This document shows positions 10,910 to 18,502 of a DNA stretch of 64,000 bases, piece by piece (within the stretch, counting starts at the first letter, position 1; each line of letters starts with the position of its first letter). The notes beneath the pieces were generated by a model that did not search any database, was not told the origin of the DNA, and was given only the letters and a program-made list of their open reading frames with translations. Origin of the DNA: Bacilli bacterium. GTDB taxonomy: Bacteria > Bacillota_I > Bacilli_A > ML615J-28 > CAG-698. Made by a program: the position numbers and the translations under genes. The stretch lies in contig JAGCUR010000001.1 in NCBI GenBank assembly GCA_017962745.1, positions 1-64,000 of the forward strand, written 5' to 3'.

Positions 10910-13513
10910 TTAACTAGATGGAATCGAATGTGTTTTACATACTTTCCAATAATCAACAATATTATTCAAGAGAACAGTACCATTAGCTATTATCTTATAT
11001 GCATATGGGAATTTGTTTTCCGAATTATTATCGTTATCCCGCAAGTATACTGTTAGATTAATCGCGGACCCTGTGGAATTGTTTATGCTAATGATATATA
11101 ACCCATTATCATAATCACCATCAGTTGTTTTAGCAGATTTATCAAAATATACTGTTACATCAAATTTATCAAGTGATCCACTCGGTGCATCAACAGCGAA
11201 TTGGAATAAGTTGTAGTTATCTAATACATCTGGACTAGTTCTAAAATCTACATCAAAGATTTCGCTTACAGCGTTACCTACTGTATCAACGCTTTGAGGA
11301 ACATCATCATTACCGTTAGAGCCGATATCTAAATATAGTAGATATCCTCCATCAGATGCTGATGAGCCAATAGCAAATTCGCCTTCGCCAACTGGAATTT
11401 CAAAATAATAAACTGCATTCTTTACTGGTGGCTCTTTAGTTAAGAATTGTAAATCAAATAATTTTGTACAACCTGCTGTGCTTTCATTGTTTGTAACATA
11501 TACATAATCACCAGTTGTATTATTCTTCCAAATACTCTTGATTTCGCTAGCGCCAGTAATAGCATTATTACTTCCTCTTGTTACTTTATATAACGAGAAG
11601 AAACTCTTAGCTGTTGAATCGGAATATGAATAATAGAATGATCCAGCAAATACAGTTATATAACCTTCTTCTTTTAGATTAAAATCAATTGAATTTAATA
11701 GTACTGGATAATTTGTGTATGTTGAACCATTGATTATAGCTGAAGGAATTGAAGCAGTCGAAGAAGAACTTACACCGCCACCCATAAAGTGAAGTCCGTG
11801 AACTCTTTTTGAGCCCGATAAAATAGCATCTAACGAACTTCTTGCGTCTTCATATCTCTTTAAATCTAAATCAGTGTCATACGCTTTTTTAGTGTAACCT
11901 GATAGCGCACTATTAACTGTTGAATTATTTTTATTATAATTATCAGAAATTCGATAATAATTAGAATTACTATAAGTAGTACTAGAATTAGTTAGTAATT
12001 CAAACTTTGATGAGTCATATGTTAGATATGTAGAATTACTATTATATTGTGCACCTGTATAACTAGTTGTTCCTAGTGATGCAGATATTTGCATATTAGC
12101 AGATGATGCGCTTCTTATTGTACCATCTGTTGAAGTCGAGGTATGACCACTAGATCCATATGCAAAGTTAGAACCAACAATATATCCAGTATTATATGAT
12201 GCTGTAGAATTATCACCATTTACTGATAATGGTAGATATGTTCCAGGTACACTTTCACTAGTGTACTTTGTGCTAGATACTTGTAAGCTATGTGCGCCAC
12301 TACCAACCATATTATAAATAGTATTGTTTGTTTCTGGATTTTTAGCTAGATATGTATTAGCGCTCGATCTAGTACCTCCACGATAAATTGATAATGCCAT
12401 TTCATCGTTTGAAGTATATTTTAGACATCTATCGGCTGTTTTATTGCCGTTTTTAAATGTCGCCATTGTAACATTAGAACCATTAATTATTTCATAAATA
12501 CGCATATTTAATTCATTGAAGGCGATTGAACCACCCCAGTTTGCGCCAGGATCATCGCCGATGTGGCTAGAGATTGTTTCTTCTAAGGTTTCCATTTCTA
12601 CACCTTGTGAGTTATCAACTCTACCAAACAATCCATAATTACTTTTTGCAGCATTGCCACCAGTAATTGTGCAATTATTAATATATGTATTTACGAATAC
12701 TTTCTTTTCATTATTATCAAGGATTGTTTCATCAATCGTAACATGTCCTGCTAAGTAGCCAACGTATGCTGTTTCATGATCGTCAGATATGTGACCTGCA
12801 CAAGTGATACTAGCATCTACATCAACTAGACTAATAGTTACATTTTCAAAATATGTATCCTTGATTACAGTTCTCTTTCCATTAACTCCTGATGCTTGTT
12901 TAACATATCCAAAAATACCGATATCAGCGGTTTTTCTTGTGATTGTTTCACTTAAATTAGCCGGATTAGGAATATCTTCTGAAGAAATAATATTTAAGTT
13001 CTTAATTGTTAATCCTTTTCCATCAAAAACACCATAGAATGGTATGTAAGATGTACCAATTGGCATTAGTGAATTTGATTCCGAATAATAAGCCATATTT
13101 AATTCTGTAGAATAAGTTGGATTCTCATTGCCATCAAGGATAATGTCACCTTGGTCGTTATATGCATATACTTTATATGCACCATTGCCATCAAAGTCAT
13201 ATCCTAATTGGAAATAAATAAAATCACTACCGAAATTTGAAGTAACTGTATTTCCGTTTATTGTAACGGAAATTGAAGTTTCTCTTTGGAAGAACTCAAC
13301 CATATGATAATAATGAATTGGTTTCGTAATTACATATGGATTTGATTGCGTTCCATCTCCGGTATGGAATCTTTCTTGTACGACTTTTCCTGATACTGCC
13401 GCATGAATAGTATTATCAGCTGATCTAATCCATGCATATGTAATTGACAACATAGATAGCGCAATTACCAAAAATGCGGCAATTGTTAAGTATAATTTCT
13501 TAGCAACTTTCAT
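10910..13513 (-). CDS. Large secreted surface protein with SipW-type signal and GLUG-like repeats
   Basis: I choose the ATG at 13513 (867 aa), after GGAGAG and 1 bp past the stop of the preceding gene; an earlier in-frame start would lie inside that gene. The N-terminus is a hydrophobic helix ending SITYAWI, like the other three proteins of this cluster. GDGTQSNPYVIT (52-63) and FYGVFDGKGLTIKNLNI (159-175) resemble the opening and repeat units of GLUG-motif or beta-helix adhesins. The middle (about 290-560) is very rich in Ser, Thr, Asn and Tyr. No LPXTG-like anchor or C-terminal membrane helix is evident. Function is inferred as an extracellular matrix or adhesion protein. Confidence 0.75.
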   Translation of the reverse strand: MKVAKKLYLTIAAFLVIALSMLSITYAWIRSADNTIHAAVSGKVVQERFHTGDGTQSNPYVITKPIHYYHMVEFFQRETSISVTINGNTVTSNFGSDFIYFQLGYDFDGNGAYKVYAYNDQGDIILDGNENPTYSTELNMAYYSESNSLMPIGTSYIPFYGVFDGKGLTIKNLNIISSEDIPNPANLSETITRKTADIGIFGYVKQASGVNGKRTVIKDTYFENVTISLVDVDASITCAGHISDDHETAYVGYLAGHVTIDETILDNNEKKVFVNTYINNCTITGGNAAKSNYGLFGRVDNSQGVEMETLEETISSHIGDDPGANWGGSIAFNELNMRIYEIINGSNVTMATFKNGNKTADRCLKYTSNDEMALSIYRGGTRSSANTYLAKNPETNNTIYNMVGSGAHSLQVSSTKYTSESVPGTYLPLSVNGDNSTASYNTGYIVGSNFAYGSSGHTSTSTDGTIRSASSANMQISASLGTTSYTGAQYNSNSTYLTYDSSKFELLTNSSTTYSNSNYYRISDNYNKNNSTVNSALSGYTKKAYDTDLDLKRYEDARSSLDAILSGSKRVHGLHFMGGGVSSSSTASIPSAIINGSTYTNYPVLLNSIDFNLKEEGYITVFAGSFYYSYSDSTAKSFFSLYKVTRGSNNAITGASEIKSIWKNNTTGDYVYVTNNESTAGCTKLFDLQFLTKEPPVKNAVYYFEIPVGEGEFAIGSSASDGGYLLYLDIGSNGNDDVPQSVDTVGNAVSEIFDVDFRTSPDVLDNYNLFQFAVDAPSGSLDKFDVTVYFDKSAKTTDGDYDNGLYIISINNSTGSAINLTVYLRDNDNNSENKFPYAYKIIANGTVLLNNIVDYWKVCKTHSIPSS

Positions 13514-13514
13514 A

Positions 13515-14318
13515 TTAGTTACTCTCCAAATCAATATAAATAGTGCCAATATCCGCTAAAAAATCACCAGGAGCTTCAGCGCTACCATAGCTATTAATAT
13601 ATTCACCAATTAATGCTGGATCATAATTGATTTCGATATTAATAATTATTTCAACATTATCGATATTGCTAACATCATTTGGAATATACATGCTATAGTC
13701 GCTATAATGCAATTTTAATTCAGCCAGTGATGCTTTAGTTTTAGAGTTGCCTGTTCCATCAAAGAAATTATCAGTGATAGCATCGTTTGTCTCTAAAGCC
13801 TCAATAGCACCATTAAATATACTTATTTTGTTGTTATTGTTTACTTCGTTTCCATATGTATCTTTTACTTTACTACTTGTAAGTCCACATCCACATTTAA
13901 CAATCGCAACATTTGATAATTTATTAGCCACTTTATTATTTTCTTTATATGTATTACTGCATGGAAACTTTAAAGATATATATGTATTTTGATCCATTGC
14001 TAGTCCTTTAGGAACTAACAATACTATTCTTATAATAAGTGGAGTATTAACGTTACGGTCAGTAAAAATAGTATCGTATTCTGACATTGTAATTGCTTCT
14101 TCTTCATCGTCTAGTAAGACATAGCTTGCTTTTGTAATACCATCGTATTTCAAAGCATAGCATGTAGTACTAGTAATTGATGAAGCGGGCTTTACATTAA
14201 TATCGATTCCATTTCCACCAACATTCTTATTTGGTGCAATCCATGAATATGTGGCAAGGATAGTTAATGATAAAGCTAAAAATATACATATAGACAGAAA
14301 TATAATTCTACTTTTCAT
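13515..14318 (-). CDS. Secreted protein with SipW-type signal, minor cluster component
   Basis: This 267-residue protein begins with a hydrophobic helix (about 5-24) ending ATYSWIAPNKNVGGNGIDI, matching the shape of its neighbours' signal peptides. The rest is beta-strand-like, with a CGCG pair near the middle and an acidic end. It has no family I can name. It starts after a hairpin that follows the 14370-15203 gene and overlaps closely with the large surface gene at 13513, so the two are probably co-translated minor components made from read-through of the attenuator. Confidence 0.65.
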   Translation of the reverse strand: MKSRIIFLSICIFLALSLTILATYSWIAPNKNVGGNGIDINVKPASSITSTTCYALKYDGITKASYVLLDDEEEAITMSEYDTIFTDRNVNTPLIIRIVLLVPKGLAMDQNTYISLKFPCSNTYKENNKVANKLSNVAIVKCGCGLTSSKVKDTYGNEVNNNNKISIFNGAIEALETNDAITDNFFDGTGNSKTKASLAELKLHYSDYSMYIPNDVSNIDNVEIIINIEINYDPALIGEYINSYGSAEAPGDFLADIGTIYIDLESN

Positions 14319-14333
14319 AATTATCTCCTTAAA

Positions 14334-14370
14334 AAAACCAGTTAACTTCTTTTAAAAAGTAACTGGTTTT
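14334..14370 (-). terminator. Intra-operon terminator/attenuator in the surface-protein operon
   Basis: AAAACCAGTTA and TAACTGGTTTT pair, and a T run follows on the minus strand immediately before the ribosome site of the next gene. The stem starts at the stop of the 14370-15203 gene. No promoter is evident between it and the next start, so it probably reduces, rather than blocks, expression of the two downstream genes. Confidence 0.7.
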
Positions 14371-15203
14371 TAATTTACTGGATCAGTAACACTGAATGTA
14401 ATTGCTACGCTTAAATTCTCAATTGTTAAAGAATTTTCACTTGTGCAATTTGTGTCTTGTCCTTCATACCATACATAAACATCAATTTGAATTGGTGTTG
14501 TAGTTGTAACAGTATTAGCTAAAATTAGAGTCGATTCAAAAGTAGATGAGGCAGATACTGAAGATGTAGTGTATGCAGGCGTACCATCTTGTGTTCCTGA
14601 AATTCCAAGGTATGATGTTTGTCCGCCAGTTACAGAATAAAAATAAACTTTATTATTTGTTGGGCATGCTACAGCAACTCTTAACGCTTTAGAAATATTA
14701 CTTTGAGTATTAGCTCTAGTAACAACAATATTTGATACATATAAATTAGATAGTGTGTCAGCTGCTTGGCCATCAACTTTTACCCAGAATGTATGTTTCA
14801 TTACACTGTATGTTGTTCCACTAACAGGAACTGTAGAAGTAGGTGTTACTTCAACAAATTCAGCACCAGTTTCAAGTGCACCTGTTGCGTAGTTGATGTA
14901 ATTAGCTTTCGTTTCGCTATTTGGAGCATAGAATTTTAATACTCCACTGGATAGCGTATCAATCGATGAAGCTGGAGACATCGTAGCAGCATCGTTAGAT
15001 GCAATTGATGATGTAGCTGATACAGCATAACCTGTTGATTGATTATTTGAAATCAGCAAGTTCTTAACAGTTTCAGCTTGCACTTGCATTCCCTCGGCTT
15101 GAACATTTCTGTTTTCGCTTAACCATGCAAATGTAGCACCAACTATTGCTATAAACGCTAACGATAACCATATTAGCGAAATGAATAGCTTTCCTTTCTT
15201 CAT
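14370..15203 (-). CDS. TasA-like secreted protein with SipW-type signal (paralogue 1)
   Basis: The 277-residue protein has a basic start, a hydrophobic helix and then VGATFAWLSENRNVQAEGMQVQ (21-42), the layout of SipW-dependent signal peptides as in TasA. The mature part is Ser/Thr/Val-rich and beta-like, with ISKALRVAV in the middle and a conserved VYVWYEGQDTNCTSENS near the end. It shares all these blocks with the gene at 15350-16231, so they are paralogues. No SipW-like peptidase lies in the window. The promoter has three 11-bp-spaced repeats identical in layout to those of its paralogue. Confidence 0.75.
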   Translation of the reverse strand: MKKGKLFISLIWLSLAFIAIVGATFAWLSENRNVQAEGMQVQAETVKNLLISNNQSTGYAVSATSSIASNDAATMSPASSIDTLSSGVLKFYAPNSETKANYINYATGALETGAEFVEVTPTSTVPVSGTTYSVMKHTFWVKVDGQAADTLSNLYVSNIVVTRANTQSNISKALRVAVACPTNNKVYFYSVTGGQTSYLGISGTQDGTPAYTTSSVSASSTFESTLILANTVTTTTPIQIDVYVWYEGQDTNCTSENSLTIENLSVAITFSVTDPVN

Positions 15204-15245: not shown

Positions 15246-15289
15246 ATTATACTAGCGGCATTATTAACCAATCATTAACCGAATATTAA
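15246..15289 (-). promoter_or_regulatory. Promoter with three 11-bp-spaced TTAATR repeats
   Basis: On the minus strand a TATAAT -10 (15246-15251) is preceded, after exactly 10 bp, by three TTAATR hexamers at 15262-15267, 15273-15278 and 15284-15289. They replace a consensus -35. Direct repeats on one face of the helix covering the -35 are the classic layout for OmpR/PhoB-family activators (for example PhoP boxes of Bacillus). The identity of the regulator is inference. Confidence 0.7.
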
Positions 15290-15305
15290 CGGATATTTAA
15301 AATGC

Positions 15306-15334
15306 ATAAAAAAAGACACTCTTGCGAGTGTCTT
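15306..15334 (-). terminator. Terminator of the second TasA-like gene
   Basis: AAGACACTC and GAGTGTCTT pair around TTGC, followed by a seven-base T run on the minus strand, 16 bp past the stop at 15350. Confidence 0.85.
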
Positions 15335-15349
15335 ATATTTCTAAAGAAA

Positions 15350-16231
15350 TTATTGTTGAGCAACTGGATCTCCAGAGCATTGGAATGATACTTTTACTAA
15401 TAATTCTTCAACATTTACAGAATTTGCGCTTGTACAAGAAGCATCTTGACCTTCATACCATACATAAACATAAACTGTTAATGTATTGCTAGAAGCACCA
15501 GCAGTTGCGCCTAATTTTAATTCACCAAGTGTAGCACTTGTTCCAACAGTTGTAATAGTTTCATTATCAGCGGCTAATGTTGTAGAAGTAAGTCCTGTAC
15601 CAGCAGCTTTGATTCCCTTATAAGAAGCACTGTAACCTGTAACAGGTGCGAAAATGTAACCATAAGTTGTTTCACCATTTGTACAAACAACACCAACTCT
15701 TAAAGCTTTTGAAATATTTTGTGAAGCAGCTGCATCACTAACTGTAGCAGTTACAGCACTGATATATACATTTTCGAATTTCTTTGTAGCATCGCCAACA
15801 GCAGTAATATAGAATGTGTTCTTAGAAACATATGTTTTGCCACTTGAAACAGCATCATCTGTGGCGATATTAGCAGCAACAACTGAACTAAATATTGTAT
15901 CATCAGTGGCAGCACCAGAGTCATATTCGATGTTAGCTCTATCAGCAAAGAAGAATGCGCCAGCTTTTAATCCTGTAGCAACAGTATTTGATGTTGAAGC
16001 AGGGCTTAAAGTAGTTGTAGCGCTGTTTGTAGCATCAGCACTGTAATCGAATTCAGTTTGAGTATCGCTATTTCTAATTAGTAAGTTAGAAGCTGTTTCA
16101 GCTTGAACATGCATTCCATCAGCACTAACATTTCTGTTTTCTGCAAACCATGCAAATGTAGCACCAACTATCATAATCATAGTTAATCCTAACCACATAA
16201 AAGCAATTATAATTTTTCCGTATTTTTTCAT
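15350..16231 (-). CDS. TasA-like secreted protein with SipW-type signal (paralogue 2)
   Basis: This 293-residue protein starts with a basic residue run, a long hydrophobic helix (about 6-24) and VGATFAWFAENRNVSADGMHVQ (22-43). The mature region is Ala/Thr/Ser-rich with NISKALRVGV and VYVYVWYEGQDASCTSANS, shared with the 14370-15203 paralogue. The composition and two cysteines (near VVCTNG and DASCTS) suggest a beta-sandwich with a possible disulfide. It is monocistronic, with its own repeat-bearing promoter and terminator. TasA is the functional analogue I infer; a filament subunit or other exported protein is equally possible. Confidence 0.75.
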   Translation of the reverse strand: MKKYGKIIIAFMWLGLTMIMIVGATFAWFAENRNVSADGMHVQAETASNLLIRNSDTQTEFDYSADATNSATTTLSPASTSNTVATGLKAGAFFFADRANIEYDSGAATDDTIFSSVVAANIATDDAVSSGKTYVSKNTFYITAVGDATKKFENVYISAVTATVSDAAASQNISKALRVGVVCTNGETTYGYIFAPVTGYSASYKGIKAAGTGLTSTTLAADNETITTVGTSATLGELKLGATAGASSNTLTVYVYVWYEGQDASCTSANSVNVEELLVKVSFQCSGDPVAQQ

Positions 16232-16286
16232 TTTTATCTCCTTATTAATGAATGAATACCTAGTCTTTTATTCATTTTACACTTAC

Positions 16287-16330
16287 ATTATAATATATGC
16301 TCTATTAATCGACTATTAATCCACCATTAA
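16287..16330 (-). promoter_or_regulatory. Promoter with three 11-bp-spaced TTAATR repeats
   Basis: On the minus strand TATAAT (16287-16292) is preceded after exactly 10 bp by TTAATR hexamers at 16303-16308, 16314-16319 and 16325-16330. The geometry is identical to the promoter at 15246-15289, and the sequence around the -10 (TATAATGTAAGT) is also shared, so the two paralogues are almost certainly co-regulated. Confidence 0.7.
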
Positions 16331-16349
16331 TATACGCTCTATATATAAG

Positions 16350-16382
16350 AAAAAAGCACTATTAATCATTTAATAGTGCTTT
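16350..16382 (-). terminator. Terminator of the trx-nuclease-patatin operon
   Basis: AAGCACTATTAA and TTAATAGTGCTT pair around TCAT, with T-rich sequence following on the minus strand. The stem overlaps the last codons and stop of the patatin gene. Confidence 0.8.
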
Positions 16383-17144
16383 AATTTTATCAATATTTTC
16401 CATTCCAAGCTTATAACCAGCTTCAAACGCTAGATTTACAGTCTTAATTTGGTATTGAGAAGCATCTCCTAGATCTACTGGTAAAAGTAGATCTGCTTGT
16501 TCTTCATCTTTTTTATATTTGGCTACTGTAAATTCTAAGATATCGGTTGCTCTAGTTACAAGTTCAATGAGATTTTTGATTTTCTTAGTAGGTCGTACAT
16601 CACCTAATACATCTACAGCTATTACAATATCTGCTCCCATTTCTCTAGTATATTTGATTGGAACTCTTTCGTTGATTCCACCATCAACAAGTAATCTACC
16701 ATTATCTTTAACTGGTTCAAATACAATTGGGATACTACAACTTGCTCTAACTGCTCTTAAAAGATTGCCATCGTGGTGCCATATCGTTTTACCTTCAAGT
16801 AAATCATATGAAACACAAGAAAAAGGAATATTTAAATTTTCAAAAGTAGCACCTTTTAAATATTTAGCTAATACTTTTTCGAGTTTTGCACCTTGAGCAA
16901 ATCCTTTATTATTATAAGGAAATGGATCGAGAGCTAATATTTGAAATAATCTTAACTTTTTCGCAGATGCAATCATTTCATCAGGTGTCATTCCATATGC
17001 ATAGCATGCCCCAACGATTGCACCCATTGAACATCCACAAATCCAATCAGGTTTGATACCATTTTCTTCTAATGCTTTTAAAAATCCAACATGAGCTATG
17101 CCTCTAGCTCCGCCAGAGCCAAGCGTTAATCCAAACTTTTTCAT
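16362..17144 (-). CDS. Patatin-like phospholipase (RssA family)
   Basis: The 260-residue protein is a predicted serine lipid acyl hydrolase. It has the oxyanion-hole glycine motif GSGGARG (9-15), the nucleophile elbow GCSMG (37-41, S39) and the catalytic Asp in LLVDGGI (near 154). The family's usual substrates are phospholipids or lysophospholipids. No signal peptide is seen, so it acts in the cytosol or at the inner membrane face. The ATG at 17144 overlaps the stop of the nuclease gene by one base (TAATG), showing translational coupling; longer starts lie inside that gene. Confidence 0.9.
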   Translation of the reverse strand: MKKFGLTLGSGGARGIAHVGFLKALEENGIKPDWICGCSMGAIVGACYAYGMTPDEMIASAKKLRLFQILALDPFPYNNKGFAQGAKLEKVLAKYLKGATFENLNIPFSCVSYDLLEGKTIWHHDGNLLRAVRASCSIPIVFEPVKDNGRLLVDGGINERVPIKYTREMGADIVIAVDVLGDVRPTKKIKNLIELVTRATDILEFTVAKYKKDEEQADLLLPVDLGDASQYQIKTVNLAFEAGYKLGMENIDKIKALLND

Positions 17145-18502
17145 TATTCTGGTAAACTCCAAATTAAATCAGCTAAAGATGGATAATCAATGAATGGATT
17201 TCTATTATTTTGATATGTATAAATTACATTATTTCTATTTCTTTCAAAATCATCAACAGGATCGATTCGATTCCATTCAAGTAATAACTCTAAATTACCA
17301 ATTTCATATGTAGTTTTGCCTAATGCATCGAATACTAATTCTAAATCAGCTTCACTAGATACATCACCTTCATATCTAACAGCCATATAGAATAACATTC
17401 TCGCGATATCACCTTTAACTTCATCGCGTGGTTCAAAGTAATAATCCGATTTTTTACATTTACTAGAACCTGTGGCATATGTATCACTTACTACAGTTGT
17501 AGCAAGTCCAAATTCTAAATTACCACGAGCTGAATTGACACTAACATCAGCTGGACGGATGTGGTGTGCATCATGACCGGCAGTTAAACCAGTATCACCA
17601 CCAAGTTTTGATAGTGGCCAAACGTGTTCTCTATTCCAACCATCTGCTTCGTTGTTTTGGGCAATGCCGCCGCCTTGGCTTCTGCCTGTATATAATAAAA
17701 TCATTTTTGATGGATCATTAGGATCAGCATCAGATTGAGGTAGAATAGTTTTTAATTGGGCATAACTACCACTAATATGTTCATCAATTAAGCTGTGTAA
17801 TATTGCTTTGATATCGTCAGCTTCCATTTCTGGTAAGTATCCGATTGTAGAATAATATGTTTCTGCAGTTAATTCTAATTCTTCTACACTAATTCTAACG
17901 TTTAATTCTTCGCCATCACTAATAGTAGCTTTACCTTTTTTCAAACATATCAATATATTACTATCAGTAATTCGAATAACCGATGAATCACTAGATGTAT
18001 ATGTTCTAGTAGTTTCTAGGCCAAATGTATTACCTACATATAATGTAGTAGCAAGTTTATCAATAGTAGTTCTATCGGCAAGTGATGCGCCACTAAATTC
18101 TGTGTATTTTTCAGTAATTTCTTTATAACTATTTACGATAGGTGGTGTAACTGTACCACTACCGCTACCGCCTTGGCCTTCACCTTCGCCAGTATTTGCA
18201 CCTTGCGATGAATCTTTAATATATATAACTAAAGTTTCATACCAATCTTCATATGTAACCATGACGATATATCTACCAGCTTTATCAAACGTATATGTTT
18301 TATCTAACATATCACTTGTTAGTGGTATGTATTCCGCGTCATTACCATCGCCAACTTTAATTTTTATATCGCTAATATTAAATGAACTTAATTCATAACC
18401 ATCAGAATTATAAATTAATTCATAACTATTATGTTCGCCGCTTCCGCAAGCAACTAGCGACATAGTTAATATAAGAAGTATATATATAAATATTTTCTTC
18501 AT
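17144..18502 (-). CDS. Lipoprotein with endonuclease I domain (secreted DNase)
   Basis: The protein (452 aa) has a lipoprotein signal peptide with lipobox MSLVACG (C19), then about 200 residues of beta-rich sequence with a Gly/Glu linker near 100-115. The C-terminal half is an endonuclease I/BsnB-type nuclease: WNREHVWPLSKLG, then GHDAHHIRPADVSVNSARGN (about 287-330) and RDEVKGDIARMLFYMAVRY. These residues are the metal-binding and catalytic core of the His-Me finger family. It is probably anchored outside the cell and degrades extracellular DNA or RNA. It overlaps thioredoxin upstream and patatin downstream by one base each. Confidence 0.88.
   Translation of the reverse strand: MKKIFIYILLILTMSLVACGSGEHNSYELIYNSDGYELSSFNISDIKIKVGDGNDAEYIPLTSDMLDKTYTFDKAGRYIVMVTYEDWYETLVIYIKDSSQGANTGEGEGQGGSGSGTVTPPIVNSYKEITEKYTEFSGASLADRTTIDKLATTLYVGNTFGLETTRTYTSSDSSVIRITDSNILICLKKGKATISDGEELNVRISVEELELTAETYYSTIGYLPEMEADDIKAILHSLIDEHISGSYAQLKTILPQSDADPNDPSKMILLYTGRSQGGGIAQNNEADGWNREHVWPLSKLGGDTGLTAGHDAHHIRPADVSVNSARGNLEFGLATTVVSDTYATGSSKCKKSDYYFEPRDEVKGDIARMLFYMAVRYEGDVSSEADLELVFDALGKTTYEIGNLELLLEWNRIDPVDDFERNRNNVIYTYQNNRNPFIDYPSLADLIWSLPE

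Follow-up and report, generated by a model that had tools for sequence, protein, structure and literature searches.

The boxes repeated upstream of two neighbouring genes in the 64,000-nucleotide stretch of Bacilli DNA analysed here (the window) probably constitute, as judged from sequence comparison, an operator through which a dedicated two-component system activates genes for TasA-like surface proteins secreted via SipW. Instances of this operator lie specifically in front of genes of this kind, are conserved in related genomes, and are both associated in their distribution and physically linked with the gene encoding a SARP-like response regulator, P0001.

The paired three-box promoters of the window are real and lie well beyond chance expectation. 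At two locations on the minus strand (16330-16287 and 15289-15246; Table 1), three TTAATR boxes with an 11-bp period are situated exactly 10 bp upstream of TATAATGTAAGT, precisely as a preliminary description of the range 15246-16330 had reported. The first site, read on the minus strand from 16330, is TTAATG-GTGGA-TTAATA-GTCGA-TTAATA-GAGCATATAT-TATAATGTAAGT, and the second, read on the same strand from 15289, is TTAATA-TTCGG-TTAATG-ATTGG-TTAATA-ATGCCGCTAG-TATAATGTAAGT. The start codons of the corresponding genes are located 55 bp (gene 1) and 42 bp (gene 2) downstream of the end of the -10 element, and a terminator-like hairpin lies between gene 1 and promoter 2, which suggests that genes 1 and 2 form separate transcription units. 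Under a first-order Markov model of the window, three boxes followed by N10 and TATAAT are expected 3.0e-6 times in the 64-kb window and 7.3e-5 times in the 1.54-Mb genome, against two and four observed instances, respectively, and the reversed-pattern control for the three-box site returned no matches in the genome at up to 2 mismatches. Pairs of TTAATR boxes on the minus strand of the window likewise favour this period, with four pairs at 11 bp and zero to two at any other distance between 6 and 33 bp.

Table 1. Positions of the genes and promoter elements in the window, and location of the weaker two-box sites in the genome.
Feature	Position	Strand	Basis
Gene 1: 293-aa SipW-type (TasA-like) surface protein	15350..16231	-	ORF; N-terminal hydrophobic/AW signal
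Gene 2: 277-aa paralog of gene 1; first in apparent three-gene operon	14370..15203	-	ORF
267-aa protein, SipW-type N-terminus; second gene of gene 2 operon	13515..14318	-	ORF; no Pfam match
879-aa protein, SipW-type N-terminus; third gene of gene 2 operon, overlaps 267-aa gene	10910..13549	-	ORF; no Pfam match
Predicted operator 1: TTAATG 16330-16325, TTAATA 16319-16314, TTAATA 16308-16303	16303..16330	-	Exact match
-10 element TATAAT of promoter 1, followed by GTAAGTGTAAAA	16287..16292	-	Sequence
Predicted operator 2: TTAATA 15289-15284, TTAATG 15278-15273, TTAATA 15267-15262	15262..15289	-	Exact match
-10 element TATAAT of promoter 2, followed by GTAAGT	15246..15251	-	Sequence
Terminator-like hairpin GACACTC-GCAA-GAGTGTC, then T run, after gene 1	about 15310..15340	-	Read directly from sequence, unscored
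Weaker two-box site	before L013:6478, neighbour of the C8 TasA-like gene
Weaker two-box site	before three-gene SipW-type operon, contig C7, L014:6309-3649
Weaker two-box site	before racemase-like and HD-domain membrane genes, edge of C8 locus, L013:284-2382

Promoter 2 faces an apparent operon in which all three genes present a SipW-type signal sequence, and the window proteins have in common an N-terminus that is hydrophobic and carries an AW motif, as seen in SipW substrates. Searches against Pfam and NCBIfam identified no recognised domain and no family match in the TasA-like proteins of the window. The structural model obtained for the gene 1 product from two sequences was poor (pLDDT 45); its top PDB match was B. 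subtilis TasA (5of1), at a non-significant E-value of 0.04, and its other best structural match, also with a non-significant E-value, was the archaeal fibre protein CanA. The TasA-like label is reasonable but unproven for these proteins.

The products of genes 1 and 2 are paralogs sharing 40% identity, as would be expected if their promoters were alike only through gene duplication and the repeats had no regulatory meaning. Such an origin is highly improbable as a full account, given that the sequence outside the boxes and the -10 region differs between the two promoters, that the operators have stayed intact although the proteins have diverged by 60% in identity, and that further SipW-type genes, located on different contigs and in different genera, are preceded by the same operator.

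The remaining two perfect three-box sites of the genome form a tandem pair on contig C8, separated by 98 bp and located upstream of a SipW-type TasA-like gene (L013:7493). Allowing 0-1 mismatches to two boxes followed by N10 and TATAAT, seven sites were detected in the genome, distributed over six promoter regions of which five precede SipW-type genes; further two-box matches appeared only at 2 mismatches, a level at which the reversed-pattern control also yields matches. The pattern is hence not frequent at unrelated positions, and the genome-wide scan suggested in the preliminary description recovers the same sites at other surface genes, with the racemase-like/HD operon being the only sited operon without surface proteins. 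None of the seven sites was associated with a gene showing an evident phosphate link, as judged from the genes at the sites, and this speaks against the phosphate response that had been put forward for these promoters. No site was detected for a further SipW-type gene on C8 (L013:14265-14996), located after a tRNA-methyltransferase gene, which possibly reflects site loss or different control. A SipW-type operon at the equivalent place in G001 does carry a site (L210:2593-2561).

The alignment of 29 sites from five genomes outlined the consensus (A)TTAAKR-S-T-Y-N-R-TTAAKR-(G)(T)-N8-TATAAT, in which the TTAA and TATAAT columns, together with the 10-bp distance between box and TATAAT, were set at least partly by the search pattern. 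Between boxes 2 and 3, the spacer has the form S-T-Y-N-R, with T present in 29/29 sites and the preceding S in 25/29. Since both positions are conserved despite lying outside the search pattern, the repeat is best described as an 11-bp unit, TTAATRSTYNR, rather than as free-standing hexamers, and the conserved core deduced from the alignment is made up of two boxes and part of the spacer (TTAAKR-S-T-Y-N-R-TTAAKR-N10-TATAAT). The earlier view that spacer bases differ and that the hexamers and their phasing are what is conserved was therefore only partly right, the spacer between boxes 2 and 3 being conserved in part.

A clear third upstream box was observed only in genus g1 (G000, the genome analysed here, and G001), whereas in the relatives and in the three weaker copies of this genome the two promoter-proximal boxes are the clear ones. 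With TATAAT placed at -12 to -7, boxes 2 and 3 extend from about -39 to -23, and the distance from the 6-bp box to TATAAT, fixed by the pattern at 10 bp in the 29 sites, becomes 8 bp when the conserved GT that follows the box is included in it. Arrays of full operator plus -10 units were also observed before the main TasA-like genes (L202:930-1223, L095:3559-3708, L203:6376-6503 and L013:7287-7428), comprising five units in G013, three in G022 and two each in G011, G000 and G001, with a unit spacing of about 57-98 bp.

Receiver domains were identified in four proteins of the genome: a receiver-GGDEF-EAL protein, a hybrid kinase, the OmpR-type protein P0002 (L015:5206-5925) and P0001 (L013:3305-2424). 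The last two are its DNA-binding response regulators. In the OmpR/PhoB family, as illustrated by the PhoB pho box and by Bacillus PhoP, 11-bp direct repeats with TTAACA-like boxes replace the -35 element, and their geometry is nearly the same as that described here. The preliminary description had accordingly pointed to a PhoP/OmpR-family regulator, and P0002, the sole protein of the genome scoring over the Trans_reg_C cut-off, belongs to the family that typically recognises 11-bp direct repeats covering the -35 region. It is nonetheless unlikely that a PhoP/PhoB-like P0002 binds the boxes and activates these genes. Orthologs of P0002 (63-72% identical) are present in most of the family, at least 13 of these genomes lacking any exact site; P0002 is encoded on another contig with no site nearby; and G013, which has sites, yields no P0002 match at E<=1e-30, although in a draft genome this is weak evidence. 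The only OmpR-type regulator of the genome thus fails to co-occur with the sites. Given that SARP and OmpR/PhoB regulators share this operator geometry, the regulator was selected by co-occurrence and linkage and not by geometry alone, which leads to P0001.

Among 100 relatives, the three-box search returned exact matches only in G000 and G001, and the first impression of a genus-only motif was overturned when a pattern of two boxes with K at position 5 added G011, G022 and G013. Orthologs of P0001 were identified in five of the 28 family genomes, namely G000 and G001 (98% identical), G022 and G011 (60-62%) and G013 (57%), four of these five genomes being drafts or metagenome-assembled. Exact two-box sites amount to five in G000, three in G001, two in G011 and four in G022, against a total of one in the 23 genomes without P0001, and two or more exact sites are found in 4/5 P0001-positive but in 0/23 P0001-negative genomes (P = 2e-4). 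In G013, a tandem cluster detected at one mismatch comprises five units and separates the kinase from the TasA-like pair, and three units occupy this interval in G022. Sites precede SipW-type genes in all five P0001 genomes, so that the pattern has not been lost in close relatives. When TasA-like loci were fetched from the 28 genomes with a protein profile, blind to their promoters, a site at 0-1 mismatch was present in 9/9 loci of P0001-positive genomes and in 0/20 loci of P0001-negative ones, the latter coming from 12 genomes and lying in some cases in one operon, and hence not being fully independent.

The lone exact match in a P0001-negative genome (G008:C55) is located before a peptidase-like gene and was treated as chance. 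Distant loci encoding receiver-SARP-like proteins in G036, G098, G082 and Bacillus niameyensis were considered as regulon members and rejected: membrane kinases adjoin them, but clear SipW/TasA neighbours are absent. A lipoprotein of G001 (L241:2444-3175) matches the TasA-like profile in its C-terminal part; it has a lipoprotein-type signal and its gene no site.

P0001 is a 293-aa protein with a receiver and a C-terminal domain related to OmpR/SARP winged helices. The receiver matches PF00072 with an E-value of 7e-20, and residues D8, D9, D55, T83 and K103 are invariant. The winged helix scores below the Pfam cut-off (Trans_reg_C, PF00486; E 0.06-0.21) and matches the EmbR profile weakly (E 0.36). 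The structural model is of moderate quality (pLDDT 70), with a predicted order of strands and helices that fits a winged helix, and full-length structure matches include OmpR/PhoB response regulators. All four lineages that have P0001 orthologs share an identical helix region, DDKKLMNNFHVA-FSLR. A BTAD domain, which is part of the full SARP definition, was not matched in P0001 orthologs, and we therefore designate P0001 as SARP-like rather than SARP; a Bacillus niameyensis homolog (L105), 34% identical to P0001 over the aligned length, presents BTAD above the cut-off.

The C8 locus that encodes P0001 also contains the genes for the kinase P0003 and for SipW, together with four of the seven sites, and no more than about 5 kb separates the P0001 gene from the tandem pair. 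Because the enumeration of regulators covered response regulators only, a transcription factor of another type might bind the repeats, with P0001 merely co-occurring as part of the locus. We deem this quite unlikely, as no other evident regulator is encoded in the locus and RemA (PF04025), the repeat-binding activator of B. subtilis matrix genes, was absent from 12/12 genomes tested, with control genomes scoring positive.

The proposed assignment of the boxes to P0001 is in keeping with Streptomyces SARP operators, such as those of AfsR and PimR, where 11-bp direct repeats also lie just upstream of the -10 element, over the -35 region (PMC10936776, PMC5930380). AfsR recognises two 11-bp repeats centred at -29.5, and the 3' repeat of SARP operators generally lies 8 bp from the -10 element (PMC10936776), while PimR operators present three repeats, two of which are needed to bind and three of which work best (PMC5930380). 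In contrast to these systems, the repeats described here are AT-rich and found in Bacilli, the receiver precedes the DNA-binding domain with no full BTAD, and the targets are surface proteins and not antibiotic clusters.

A two-component system encoded together with sipW and a TasA-type fibre gene has been described in Clostridium perfringens, where BsaR/BsaS is encoded in the sipW-bsaA operon and required for its expression, with BsaR binding the sipW promoter (PMC7395162). This similar logic supports, by analogy, activation by the locus-encoded system here, although sipW lies inside the controlled operon in C. perfringens and has a separate TTGAC-type promoter in the present genome. The tapA-sipW-tasA operon of B. 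subtilis and B. cereus, subject to SinR repression and RemA activation (PMC13082335, PMC8481266), likewise places SipW-processed TasA-type proteins under coordinated control, but RemA is absent here. The open-access literature searched contained no description of SipW/TasA genes under the control of a SARP-type response regulator.

P0003 (L013:6305-4455) is a His_kinase/HATPase sensor of the 7TM/LytS type, and its ortholog in G022 (35% identical) has a 7TMR-DISM domain. The SipW protein P0004, whose gene adjoins that of P0001, matches NCBIfam SipW with an E-value of 1.6e-12, below the cut-off of that model, and the locus combines a SipW-type signal peptidase with substrates bearing a SipW-type N-terminus. 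Read by eye, the SipW promoters of the five genomes show TTGAC-type -35 elements and no boxes, so that the peptidase seems to be constitutive while its substrates are controlled. With regard to autoregulation, no boxes were detected between the regulator and SipW.

A winged-helix two-component activator acting over the -35 region is, on the sequence evidence, the best explanation for these promoters, in agreement with the two-component switch for surface proteins originally envisaged. Binding, activation, phosphorylation and the signal we infer as follows. The 7TMR-DISM/LytS-type kinase would sense an envelope or surface signal and phosphorylate P0001, monomers of which would assemble head to tail on one face of the DNA, one per 11-bp repeat. 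On the two promoter-proximal boxes, P0001 would substitute for the missing -35 element and recruit the housekeeping RNA polymerase, and the third upstream box of this genus would offer another contact. Additional copies of the promoter, as found upstream of the main TasA-like genes, could provide higher output or a sharper response. SipW would be produced constitutively from its own ordinary promoter, only its substrates being switched. From the matching sites that precede fibre-type surface genes, both elsewhere in this genome and in those of four relatives, it appears that a single sensor-regulator pair would activate all of these genes jointly; the genes for this pair most likely adjoin those for the main fibre proteins.

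These results take a local repeat pattern to a predicted set of regulator, operator and regulon in a lineage seen here through draft and metagenome-assembled genomes, and provide a rule (TTAAKR-S-T-Y-N-R-TTAAKR-N10-TATAAT) that flags surface-fibre genes without a recognised domain. They also suggest that SARP-like response regulators, described mostly from the regulation of antibiotics in Streptomyces, direct surface-fibre programmes in Bacilli as well. More tentatively, and as a conjecture that we would not favour over its alternatives, this might be a self-contained fibre regulon of uncultured Bacilli, in which a SARP-like regulator taken up by the SipW/TasA locus drives almost every SipW substrate from stacked arrays containing two to five complete operator-promoter units, their copy number setting the strength or the all-or-none character of fibre production.

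Several additional features were observed around these loci. The racemase-like/HD pair adjoins the regulator, as it does in G013, and its two-box site is kept in G001. The C8 TasA-like gene is followed (L013:8837-13676) by genes encoding a MoxR-like AAA ATPase, a repetitive protein rich in Glu and another SipW-like peptidase; G001, G011 and G013 show this arrangement too. A patatin-like phospholipase gene (window 16362-17162) is located just upstream of the TasA-like genes of the window, and a TasA-like gene of G001 (L092) likewise adjoins a patatin-like gene. Finally, TGTA occurs within 14 nt downstream of TATAAT in 14/29 sites, compared with 15/241 TTGA-type promoter-like matches (compare window 16287-16275 and 15246-15235), and is a possible start-site or leader element.
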